Source: Rhodothermus sp. (GTDB taxonomy: Bacteria; Bacteroidota; Rhodothermia; Rhodothermales; Rhodothermaceae). Taken from it: DNA of 42,833 nucleotides. The translations under genes and the position numbers were made by a program. The DNA lies in assembly GCA_015487635.1 (NCBI GenBank), contig WFPM01000215.1, positions 1-42,833 of the forward strand, written 5' to 3'. Every line of letters starts with the position of its first letter. The first letter of the stretch is position 1. Positions 39,712-42,833 of the stretch are shown piece by piece. The notes under the pieces were generated by a model. It saw nothing but the letters and a program-made list of their open reading frames with translations. It had not been told where the DNA came from and ran no database searches.

Positions 39712-41505
39712 TCAGACGAAAGCGTTAGGGGTGAGACGCTTGGTGATCATTTCGCTGGTCGAAGCGCCGGCCGGCACCATCGGGAAGACCAGCTCTTCCT
39801 TCACCACCTGAAAGTCGATCACGACAGGCCGATCGTTCACCTTCCAGGCCTCGTCCAGCACGGCATCGACCTCTTCGGGCCGGGTAGCCCGCAGGCCCAC
39901 GCAGTGGAACGCTTCGGCCAGTTTGACGAAGTCCGGATTCGTGTCGGACAGGTCCGTGTGGCTGAACCGGTTTTCGTGGAACAGCTCCTGCCACTGCCGG
40001 ACCATGCCCAGGAAGTTGTTGTTGATGATGGCCACCTTGATGGGCAGGCGATGCGCCGCAGCCACGCCCAGCTCCTGGGCGTTCATCACGAACCCACCGT
40101 CGCCGCTGATGCAGACCACCGGCCAGTCGCTTCGTCCACGCAGGCCGAAAGCAGCGCCGATGGCAGCTGGCAACCCGAAGCCCATGGTCCCCAGCCCGCC
40201 CGACGTAATGTGCGTGCGTGGATGCAGGAAACGGAAGTACTGCGCCGTCCACATCTGATGCTGGCCCACATCCGTCACCACGACGGCATGCCCGCCCGTC
40301 CTGGCGCGGATGCGCTCGATGACGTATTGCGCCCGCAGCTTGCCGTCGCCTTTTTCATAGGTGAGCGGACACTCGTTACGCCAGTACTCAATCTTGGCCA
40401 GCCACTCTTTCGTGTCCTTGGGCTCCACCAGCGGAAGCAGCTGCTCCAGCACCTCGCGCACGTCGCCCACGATGGCGCAGTCGACCGGGACGTTCTTCGA
40501 GATGCAGGACGGGTCGATGTCGATGTGGATCACCTTGGCATAAGGTGCCCAGGAATCGACGCGGCCGGTCACCCGGTCGTCAAAGCGGGCTCCTACGGCG
40601 ATGATCAGGTCGGCGTGCTGCACGGCCTGGTTGGCGTACCAGGTGCCGTGCATGCCCAGCATGCCCAGCGACAGCGGATCGTCTTCGGGGAAGGCGCCCA
40701 GCCCGTGCAGCGTCGTGGTGACCGGGATGCGGGCTTTTCGAGCCAGTTGGGTCAGCAGGTCGGCTGCGTTCGCGTTGATCGTGCCGCCTCCCACGTAGAG
40801 CAGCGGCCGCCGCGACGCGGCGATCAGCTCCGCCGCTTCCCGGATGCGCTCCGGATCCGGCGGTCCCGGCAGCCTGTAGCCCCGCAGGTGGACCTCCTCC
40901 GGATAGGCGAAAGGCGCCTTCGCCAGTAACACGTCCTTGGGCAGGTCCACCACCACGGGACCCGGACGCCCCGTGCGCGCAATGTGATAGGCGGCCTTGA
41001 TCGTCCAGGCCAGATCGCGCACGTCGCGCACCAGAAAGCTGTGCTTCGTGATTGAGCGCGTGATCCCGATCGTGTCGGTTTCCTGAAAGGCATCGTTGCC
41101 GATCAGTTTGGTAGGCACCTGACCGGTAAAGACCACGATGGGGATCGAGTCCATGTAGGCGTCGGCAATGCCCGTTATCGTGTTGGTGGCTCCGGGCCCA
41201 CTGGTAACCAGTACCGTACCCACACGCCCCGTGGCCTTGGCATAGCCTTCGGCCATGTGCGTGCCGCCCTGCTCGTGCCGCACAAGGATGTGCTGGAAGC
41301 GCGGCTTAAGGCGGGCGATTTCGTCGTAGATGTGGATGACGGCGCCGCCGGGATGCCCGAAGACTACCTCGACGCCTTCGGCTTCCAGGGCCCGCACGAA
41401 GATTTCGGCGCCGGTCACGGGTTCGGCGGATGCAGCCACCGGCTCGCTTTCGGGGCTCAGGACCGGACGGGCGGATCGGACCAGCGGAATCGTGTCGGTA
41501 CGCAT
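39712..41505 (-). CDS. ilvB: Acetolactate synthase large subunit IlvB
   Basis: GAEIFVRALEAEGVEVVFGHPGGAVIHIYDEI; LVTSGPGATNTITGIADAYMDSIPIVVFTGQV; TPP motif SGDGGFVMNAQELGVAAAHRLPIKVAIINNNFLGMVRQWQELF. ATG at 41505 with GAGGGAG SD. Confidence 0.96.
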   Translation of the reverse strand: MRTDTIPLVRSARPVLSPESEPVAASAEPVTGAEIFVRALEAEGVEVVFGHPGGAVIHIYDEIARLKPRFQHILVRHEQGGTHMAEGYAKATGRVGTVLVTSGPGATNTITGIADAYMDSIPIVVFTGQVPTKLIGNDAFQETDTIGITRSITKHSFLVRDVRDLAWTIKAAYHIARTGRPGPVVVDLPKDVLLAKAPFAYPEEVHLRGYRLPGPPDPERIREAAELIAASRRPLLYVGGGTINANAADLLTQLARKARIPVTTTLHGLGAFPEDDPLSLGMLGMHGTWYANQAVQHADLIIAVGARFDDRVTGRVDSWAPYAKVIHIDIDPSCISKNVPVDCAIVGDVREVLEQLLPLVEPKDTKEWLAKIEYWRNECPLTYEKGDGKLRAQYVIERIRARTGGHAVVVTDVGQHQMWTAQYFRFLHPRTHITSGGLGTMGFGLPAAIGAAFGLRGRSDWPVVCISGDGGFVMNAQELGVAAAHRLPIKVAIINNNFLGMVRQWQELFHENRFSHTDLSDTNPDFVKLAEAFHCVGLRATRPEEVDAVLDEAWKVNDRPVVIDFQVVKEELVFPMVPAGASTSEMITKRLTPNAFV

Positions 41506-41510
41506 GGCTC

Positions 41511-41644
41511 CCTCACAGGCTTGGACGGTGAACAATGGTCTGGGTTTGTCGGATTGTTTTCTCGGGCTTCCGGGGTCAATCCCCCGGCCGCTGAACTTTT
41601 GCTTCTGAAACCGCCCTGCCTGTGAAGTGCCCAGGGGATTGACC
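41511..41644 (-). promoter_or_regulatory. Putative attenuator region upstream of ilvB: competing RNA helices and SD-sequestering helix
   Basis: 14-bp helix 41631-41644:41574-41587; alternative hairpin 41570-41575:41582-41587; 10-bp helix 41618-41627:41511-41520 (one G-U) covering the SD region. Confidence 0.6.
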
Positions 41645-41654
41645 GCCGTGCGTA

Positions 41655-41855
41655 TTAGCCAATAAGGCTAATAATGAGTACGAGCAGGCCAATAAGAAGC
41701 AGCAGCAGCGCCCGAAGTCGGAGGCTGCTCCCGGCCACAACCTGCTGTACCCAAGCGGTCATCCCCTGATCAAAGGGATGGGCCCACGACGCCACCAGCG
41801 CGGTCGGCTGACCGCCTCCGGTAATGACGCTTCGCTGGTGACGTCCGTGTTGCAT
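41655..41855 (-). CDS. Putative Leu/Ile/Val-rich leader peptide for the ilv-leu operon (66 aa; shorter internal start possible)
   Basis: C-terminus ...SLRLRALLLLLIGLLVLIISLIG-stop, 14 of the last 17 residues Leu/Ile/Val; stop lies 149 nt before the ilvB ATG. Confidence 0.6.
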   Translation of the reverse strand: MQHGRHQRSVITGGGQPTALVASWAHPFDQGMTAWVQQVVAGSSLRLRALLLLLIGLLVLIISLIG

Positions 41856-41884
41856 AAAAATCGTTCAGTTTTAAACGCGGGGTG

Positions 41885-41914
41885 TAATTAACATGCAAAT
41901 AGTCCGGATGTCAA
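41885..41914 (-). promoter_or_regulatory. Candidate sigma70-type promoter for the ilv leader/operon
   Basis: On the minus strand TTGACA (41914-41909), 18-nt spacer, TAATTA (41890-41885); about 30 nt before the leader ATG. Confidence 0.5.
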
Positions 41915-42012
41915 CTGTTGCCTTGCCGTCGGACTACTCACGCATCGTCGCTGCATTGGACAGGAACGGTAGCGCTTCCTATCTTAGTTATTAAAGCAAA
42001 TTCCCCTCGTAA

Positions 42013-42026
42013 CAAATAATTATTTG
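42013..42026. repeat. 14-bp perfect AT-rich palindrome, possible operator
   Basis: CAAATAATTATTTG. Confidence 0.45.
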
Positions 42027-42084
42027 AATATGGATGCGCTTTCTTGCTAAAAGAAAGGCGATACCCGGTTATCAGCTTCAAAAG

Positions 42085-42115
42085 AAAGAATCACAAATCT
42101 TCATTCTTTTTTTAC
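42085..42115. terminator. Weak possible terminator for trkH
   Basis: AAAGAAT (42085-42091) / ATTCTTT (42103-42109) inverted repeat flanked by T/A runs on both strands. Confidence 0.35.
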
Positions 42116-42120
42116 AAAAA

Positions 42121-42833
42121 TCAATGCCGCCAGAAGGTGCGCGTCAGCAGAATCAGCACGGTGAAAATCTCCAGTCGGCCGGTCATCATCAGTAGCGCCA
42201 GGATCCACTTGGCCAGCGCCGGTAGATGCGCGTAGTTCTCGGCCGGACCCATTGTCCCGAACGCCGGACCGATATTCCCCAGACAGGAAAGCACGGCTCC
42301 GAAGGCGCTCAGCAGATCCACCTCCATGGCGCTCAGCGCCAGCGTACCCATGCCCAGCAGCCCGAAGTACAGCACGAAAAACGACAGCACGTTGCGCAGC
42401 ACCTCGTCGCTGACCATCCGGCCATTGAGCCGCACAGGCACGATAGCGCGGGGATGGACCAGTTGCTTCAGTTCCCGGAAGGAGTTCTTGAACAGTAAAA
42501 CGTGCCGCACCACCTTGATGCCGCCGCCCGTCGAGCCGGCCATTCCGCCTACAAAAAACAGCAGAAACAGCACGCCTACGGCCAGCGGCGACCATTGCTC
42601 GTAGTCGGCCGTGCCGAAACCCGTCGTCGTGATAATCGAGACGGCCTGAAAGGCGCCGTGCCGCAGTGCGTCGGCCAGTTCCGAATAGGTGCGGTAGTCT
42701 CCTTCAGACTGCAGGGGCGCCCAGATGCCCAGCGTGATCAGCACGGCGGCGACCGCTACGATCGACAGGTAGACGCGCAGTTCGGTGTCCTGCCACACCG
42801 GCCGCCACTGCCCATGCAGCAGCCGATAGTGCA
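42121..42833 (-). CDS. trkH: TrkH-family potassium uptake protein, C-terminal part (gene continues beyond window end)
   Basis: Frame open to the window edge (HYRLLHGQWRPVWQDTELRVYL); GAFQAVSIITTTGFGTADYEQWSPLAVGVLFLLFFVGGMAGSTGGGIKVVRHVLLFK. Confidence 0.92.
   Translation of the reverse strand, partial: HYRLLHGQWRPVWQDTELRVYLSIVAVAAVLITLGIWAPLQSEGDYRTYSELADALRHGAFQAVSIITTTGFGTADYEQWSPLAVGVLFLLFFVGGMAGSTGGGIKVVRHVLLFKNSFRELKQLVHPRAIVPVRLNGRMVSDEVLRNVLSFFVLYFGLLGMGTLALSAMEVDLLSAFGAVLSCLGNIGPAFGTMGPAENYAHLPALAKWILALLMMTGRLEIFTVLILLTRTFWRH

Follow-up and report, generated by a model that had tools for sequence, protein, structure and literature searches.

In Rhodothermus sp. (order Rhodothermales), ilvB heads a branched-chain amino acid operon, and the leader in front of it is probably a ribosome-mediated translational attenuator, reading the supply of leucine, isoleucine, and valine and controlling the operon through access to the ilvB ribosome-binding site. 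The operon lies on the minus strand of the analysed DNA, a stretch of 42,833 nucleotides referred to below as the window. The elements of the proposed switch were defined by comparison of related leaders and by thermodynamic calculation. They comprise a leader ORF ending in a run of Ile/Leu/Val codons, a set of mutually exclusive helices, and a helix covering the translation start of the controlled gene (Table 1).

Leader ORF and the ilvB operon

The ilvB start codon occupies positions 41505-41503 of the minus strand, and the gene is followed on its 3' side by ilvN, ilvC, leuB, and leuA, all named from their translations. The ilvB homologues are 68-97% identical across the order and 92-97% identical in six Rhodothermus congeners. 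In the NCBI taxonomy Rhodothermales are placed in a phylum of their own, Rhodothermota.

The leader ORF terminates at 41657-41655 (minus strand). Its frame and its Ile/Leu/Val-rich end are kept in all seven Rhodothermus species, in which the leader has ca. 65 codons and Ile, Leu, and Val take up 11-13 of the last 16, while a diverged form is found in other families. At least nine such codons among the last 16 were counted in 32 of the 38 loci of the order vs 29 of 1972 background stops, the latter including the leaders themselves. The leader is thus rich in codons for the end products of its own operon, a property of the attenuators of amino-acid biosynthetic operons. The leader tails favour CUU and AUU (pooled frequencies of 0.50 and 0.85, respectively), whereas ilvB favours CUG and AUC; this bias may make the sensing of starvation sharper or leave the tail unstructured. 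In Rhodothermus the leader stop lies 113-149 nt before ilvB, and three segments are nearly invariant in the seven species: GGCGGTCAAT-CCCTTGGCACTTCACAGG after the stop, the block GGCCGGGGGATTGACCCCG, and AAGCCTGTGAGG located just before ilvB.

Table 1. Features of the ilvB leader in the window (arms that pair are named by number, e.g., helix 2:3)
Feature	Position	Strand	Remarks
Promoter-like TTGACA-17-TTAATT before the leader	41886..41914	-	read by eye; consensus scan negative
Leader ORF, 66 aa, MQHGRHQ...LRALLLLLIGLLVLIISLIG-stop	41655..41855	-	open frame; conservation
Arm 1, GGGGAUGACCGC, in the leader ORF	41755..41766	-	can form 11 bp with arm 2, plus a bulge
Ile/Leu/Val codon run ending the leader, presumed stall region	41658..41708	-	13 of the last 16 codons Ile/Leu/Val
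Stop-codon hairpin UUAGCC-UUAUU-GGCUAA	41655..41671	-	missing in L007; non-significant over families
Arm 2, post-stop arm GCGGUCAAUCCCCUGG	41631..41646	-	starts 5-10 nt past the stop; covaries with arm 3
Arm 5, anti-SD/anti-start arm, core CUUCACAGGC at 41627-41618	41610..41631	-	in the loop of helix 2:3
Arm 3, CCGGGGGAUUGACC	41574..41587	-	pairs with arm 2 (ON fold) or arm 4 (OFF fold)
Arm 4, CCCCGG	41570..41575	-	pairs with CCGGGG in arm 3 as the local hairpin
Arm 6, ilvB ribosome-binding region ACCGUCC AA GCCUGUGAGG GA GCC	41506..41529	-	pairs with arm 5
ilvB (acetolactate synthase large subunit), controlled gene in the proposal	39712..41505	-	open frame and homologues

Long-range helix downstream of the leader stop

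The initial annotation of this DNA had proposed that a long-range helix, a local hairpin, and a helix sequestering the Shine–Dalgarno (SD) sequence compete in the RNA between the leader stop and ilvB. The competing helices go beyond chance: the segment 41700-41490 folds at -77.1 kcal/mol vs a mean of -63.5 kcal/mol for shuffled sequences (z -2.87), surpassing 199 of 200 shuffles with one as good, the long-range helix covaries, and the local hairpin and the sequestering helix exceed shuffles.

The long-range helix 2:3 comprises 14 bp with one U-G, formed by GGUCAAUCCCCUGG (41644-41631) and CCGGGGGAUUGACC (41587-41574), exactly at the positions first described. Across families the arms conform to the consensus GGYCRAUCCC (arm 2) and GGGAUUGRCC (arm 3), and arm 2 starts 5-10 nt past the leader stop in all loci. 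A lack of covariation in related genomes had been named in advance as an observation that would refute the proposal, and across the order helix 2:3 does covary. In an alignment of 21 leaders made from sequence only, 95.7% of the cells are paired, two-sided changes occur at 4 of 11 pairs, and none of 500 shuffles reaches any of the five measures applied. For 26 distinct arm pairs, 95.4% of the cells are paired and 6 of 10 pairs show two-sided changes; the pair count was matched by 4 of 500 shuffles, whereas the remaining four measures, the covariation score included, were matched by none. Both sets are to be read with regard to arms picked partly by visible complementarity, several families represented by one or two loci, and shuffles that ignore phylogeny. 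The changes include U-A to C-G, G-C to A-U, G-C to C-G, and A-U to G-C, and shifting the register by one column lowers pairing to 50-62%.

Competing helices

Arm 3 can also take part in the local hairpin CCGGGG-GAUUGA-CCCCGG (41587-41570), already recognised in the initial annotation. This hairpin (helix 3:4) exceeds shuffled 3' flanks across families, with a combined p of 6.6e-4 over 11 family medians from shuffles that ignore phylogeny, and its stem is rebuilt from differing bases in different families. Another competitor, arm 1, had been overlooked. It lies within the leader ORF, ca. 50-140 nt before the leader stop in the families compared, and in Rhodothermus it ends ca. 95 nt before the stop. 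Helix 1:2 exceeds shuffles, with p values of 0.003-0.017 in the six distinct Rhodothermus loci and a combined p of 1.1e-6 over 11 family medians. Arm 1 completes a trp-like chain of helices 1:2, 2:3, and 3:4, to which the sequestering helix 5:6 is added. Helices 2:3 and 3:4 share arm 3, and helices 1:2 and 2:3 share arm 2; the leader therefore contains conserved, mutually exclusive helices between which a ribosome can choose.

A further hairpin, UUAGCC-UUAUU-GGCUAA, which overlaps the leader stop codon and had been listed with the others, exists in the window and is unsupported across families. It is probably not a part of the switch, as its combined p against synonymous-codon shuffles over families is 0.16 and it is missing in the congener L007.

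Proposed sequestration of the translation start

The sequestering helix was first described as 10 bp with one wobble between CUUCACAGGC (41627-41618) and GCCUGUGAGG (41520-41511). These coordinates hold, and the helix is in fact longer, joining ca. 41631-41610 with 41529-41506 by an additional GGC:GCC on one side and GGCGGU:ACCGUC on the other. In Rhodothermus it covers the SD sequence and reaches the bases adjoining the AUG. Across families helix 5:6 exceeds shuffles with a combined p of 1.3e-5, again from shuffles that ignore phylogeny. In the genus the ten core pairs are kept in all congeners, with wobble changes that preserve pairing as the sole variation; the support for this helix thus comes mainly from other families, in which the start codon is covered.

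In family f8 helix 5:6 covers the ilvB AUG, and the variants GCAUAGU:ACUAUGC vs GCAUAGC:GCUAUGU include a two-sided change. The codon covered in f11 is the ilvD AUG (CGCAUGG:CCAUGCG in L187), and in f13 and f14 it is the start codon (AUG) of a second small ORF, whose end lies next to the ilvB start. The helix is weak in L025, L128, L113, L119, L120, L196, and L197 (some f15, f2, f4, and f8 loci). By computation, the SD sequence or the start codon is thus enclosed in a helix to which the leader has an alternative, competing fold.

This second ORF (AUGCC...) begins within the switch in L014, L016, L017, L018, and L022 (f14) and in L136, L137, L144, and L145 (f13). Its product is partly conserved in f14 (MPMHALEETYLNAEASGSYF), and its arrangement suggests translational coupling to ilvB.

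Proposed mechanism

From the sequence elements, their conservation, covariation, and placement we infer a course of events; the points at which the ribosome stalls or covers arm 2, the order in which the helices form, and the sense in which ilvB is regulated belong to the model. When isoleucine, leucine, or valine is short, a ribosome would stall in the codons for these amino acids at the end of the leader and arm 2 would stay free. It would pair with arm 3 as soon as the latter is made, so that the loop of helix 2:3 would hold arm 5, and with arm 5 trapped the SD sequence and start of ilvB would be open for translation (the ON fold). When the three amino acids are plentiful, the ribosome would reach the stop codon and cover arm 2; arm 3 would then pair with arm 4 and arm 5 with the ilvB ribosome-binding site, shutting ilvB (the OFF fold). 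Without any translation of the leader, arm 1 would take arm 2 and the same OFF state would result, as with the 1:2 hairpin of the trp attenuator. In Rhodothermus arm 1 would lie behind a ribosome stalled in the Ile/Leu/Val run, and might thus pair with arm 2 around it.

Calculated energies are in line with a switch of this kind. Over 39 loci the mean ensemble energy is -33.0 kcal/mol with helix 2:3 forced vs -34.3 kcal/mol with arm 2 masked, so that on average the folds hardly differ in energy, and the start region is unpaired at 58% vs 32%, respectively; the direction is the expected one in 38 of the 39 loci, although it is partly built in, because closing helix 2:3 isolates the loop. In most Rhodothermus species the OFF fold is favoured by ca. 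8 kcal/mol. As the free ensemble prefers OFF there, the ON fold needs kinetic trapping, and it would have to be set before arm 6, ca. 45 nt further on, is made. The mutual exclusion of helices 2:3 and 5:6 is topological and due only in part to shared bases; a pseudoknot holding both is therefore conceivable.

Level of control and alternative explanations

The initial annotation had preferred translational attenuation, with a Rho-linked form also allowed, and had pointed to the lack of a U-tract after the local hairpin. Translational attenuation and the lack of a U-tract gained support: no terminator-like site was found in 41300-42300, and the exclusive helices, the Ile/Leu/Val-rich leader end, and the sequestration of the start site are conserved across families. 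The G+C-rich hairpin followed by a U-tract that marks a transcription attenuator with an intrinsic terminator is lacking here, a U-tract (5 T among 8 consecutive bases in the 40 nt that follow arm 3) being absent in 36 of 39 loci, and an intrinsic terminator was accordingly rejected. A positive contrast is offered by the ilvB leader of L038 (Ignavibacteriae), in which the segment ca. 155-50 nt upstream of the ilvB match contains an Ile/Leu/Val-rich uORF together with a hairpin that has 8 T behind it; it looks like a classical transcription attenuator. Because such a T-tract does occur in L038, its absence from most of the loci studied is meaningful and control of translation initiation is favoured.

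A transcriptional variant, in which the leader and its helices govern Rho-dependent or U-tract-free termination and masking of the SD sequence is secondary, is unlikely. In its favour, the leader senses in the manner of classical transcription attenuators, L038 has an Ile/Leu/Val leader plus a hairpin and T-tract, and in the window a stretch of 45 nt from arm 4 to the SD sequence is C-rich and G-poor, like Rho sites. Nevertheless, this C-rich stretch is largely deleted in L007, neither a terminator-like site nor, in nearly all loci, a U-tract is present, and termination would have no need of helix 5:6 to the start codon, which is conserved across families. It is very unlikely that the ribosomes finishing the leader simply feed ilvB by reinitiation or coupling, with the helices only spacing or protecting the RNA. 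Reinitiation after leader peptides has been put forward as a general phenomenon (PMC4833913), and the second small ORF of f13 and f14 does end beside the ilvB start, but the interval of 113-149 nt between the leader stop and ilvB in Rhodothermus speaks against it, and coupling leaves the Ile/Leu/Val run, the covarying exclusive helices, and arm 1 unexplained.

The well-conserved blocks found in the genus, e.g., GGCACUUCACAGG, would suit an RNA binding a ligand or a protein (a riboswitch, a T-box, or a repressor site) instead of a switch read by the ribosome. Such an RNA is an extremely doubtful candidate, since the window has no match in Rfam 15 at the gathering cut-off, the leader yields only irrelevant matches far below the cut-off in a search up to E 10, and between families the loops vary while the Ile/Leu/Val uORF and the placement of the helices are retained. 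That the arms of a G+C-rich leader match by chance, finally, is a practically negligible possibility. Most arms are invariant within the genus, for which reason the genus alone is no test of pairing; across ten families, on the other hand, covariation and the excess over shuffles argue against chance, and for helix 2:3 it is refuted.

Distribution in Rhodothermales

An uORF ending in Ile/Leu/Val codons, with its stop 5-10 nt before the GGYCRAUCCC arm, was found in ten Rhodothermales families before ilvB or ilvD. Beyond the genus Rhodothermus, the module precedes ilvB in f7, f8, f13, f14, and some f15 loci, and it precedes ilvD in f2, f4, f5, and f11, where the operon starts with ilvD. The module moves with the first gene of the operon, which provides strong independent support for a regulator acting at the operon level.

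A covariance model found the element in 36 of the 114 genomes of the order, in one place each (any second match in a genome is that site read on the opposite strand) and nearly always immediately upstream of ilvB or ilvD. In a sample of 396 genomes of the phylum it gave one weak match outside the order, in G291 of an unrelated family (E 0.0014), without an Ile/Leu/Val leader. This match and one in G109 (E 4e-4, no such leader recognised) were taken as chance. The element was not found in most f15 loci or in the f3 and f12 loci examined, some of the upstream genes having been checked; in these it may be absent or diverged.

The leaders of Balneolales

In the sister order Balneolales the ilvB leaders contain an uORF ending in Ile/Leu/Val codons and a stop, followed 4-7 nt later by GCCAGAGGUUAG...CUGACCUCUGGC. 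A pattern search for this layout matched 30 of 245 genomes of the class vs one match of the reversed control pattern. The layout was seen in unrelated sequence in L036, L042, L044, and L207-L226. In this order arm 1 lies within the Ile/Leu/Val codons (median p 0.005). A start-codon helix 5:6 in Balneolaceae was unsupported (median p 0.66) and was discarded. There the direct partner of arm 3 is the stretch immediately preceding the ilvB AUG, in the variants GCGG:CCGC, GCAG:CUGC, and GUAG:CUAC; this helix is 92.3% paired, and its covariation score is reached by none of 500 shuffles.

We lean towards the view that Rhodothermia, i.e., Rhodothermales and Balneolales, have a class-wide leader-peptide attenuator for branched-chain amino acids that reads starvation and acts at the level of translation, in which the sensor (the Ile/Leu/Val run, the stop, the post-stop arm, its partner arm, and the competitor within the ORF) is kept while the output has been rewired. 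Depending on the clade, the output under this class-wide reading would be the ilvB SD sequence, the ilvB or ilvD start codon, a second small ORF beside ilvB, or arm 3 itself masking the ribosome-binding site. The arms of the two orders have no sequence in common, so that the shared plan may be inherited or may have arisen separately.

Relation to known leader-peptide systems

The sensing half of the proposed switch works like a trp-type attenuator, and the output half like a translational attenuator of the ermC type. Amino-acid leader attenuators are a textbook case of transcription control, with the leader-peptide systems of trp, his, and ilvB/ivbL of Enterobacteria as examples. As in such attenuators, codons for the end product in a leader ORF are combined with a chain of exclusive helices (protector, preemptor, and a final hairpin) read by the ribosome; in contrast to them, there is no terminator U-tract here and the final element hides the SD sequence or the start codon. 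Moreover, the Ile/Leu/Val run is situated at the extreme end of a leader of 50-90 aa, and the switch arms lie past its stop. The ermC and cat attenuators respond to antibiotics acting on the ribosome. With these the switch shares the principle that the position of the ribosome on the leader decides whether the ribosome-binding site sits in a helix, but its leader carries codons for the end products of the operon itself. T-boxes, which read uncharged tRNA directly, carry the T-box sequence.

Among the systems described in other bacteria, the ilvBNC operon of Corynebacterium has a leader-peptide transcription attenuator (PMC10272879, PMC11857589). In Actinobacteria the LEU element upstream of leuA has a leucine codon run that pairs with the SD sequence, and a pseudoknot forms; it resembles the present leader in having a branched-chain leader peptide and alternative folds near the SD sequence of a biosynthetic gene without a terminator (PMC1262725). 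Here, unlike in the LEU element, a separate post-stop arm pairs with the SD sequence or start codon, the element precedes ilvB or ilvD, and the SD/start region pairs with the post-stop loop and not with a leucine codon run. In the translational ileS T-boxes of Actinobacteria, amino-acid supply likewise controls an SD sequestor (PMC1262725), whereas the present leader is translated and has no T-box match in Rfam.

According to a survey of 2010, leader-peptide systems had been shown, ermC apart, only in Proteobacteria and Actinobacteria, to which the survey added Firmicutes (PMC2965389). A literature search, with most subscription journals outside its scope, found no report of a leader-peptide system in Rhodothermota. 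The same sensing logic thus appears to be coupled here to translation initiation, in a phylum for which no such system was found described. The mechanism can be tested directly through its many independent versions and their compensatory changes, which also show how the output of a switch can be rewired while the sensor stays, and the switch gives a handle on the control of branched-chain amino acids in Rhodothermus and its relatives.

Region upstream of the leader

A consensus promoter scan gave no match on the minus strand; in the promoter-like site read by eye upstream of the leader, TTGAC..TTAATTA is kept in six of the seven Rhodothermus species. Upstream of this site, at ca. 42040-41960 of the minus strand, there are two boxes, AAGCGCATCCATA and AAGCGCTACC-N2-TCCTGT, kept in all seven species. 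They are possibly elements of an operator or of a second promoter.
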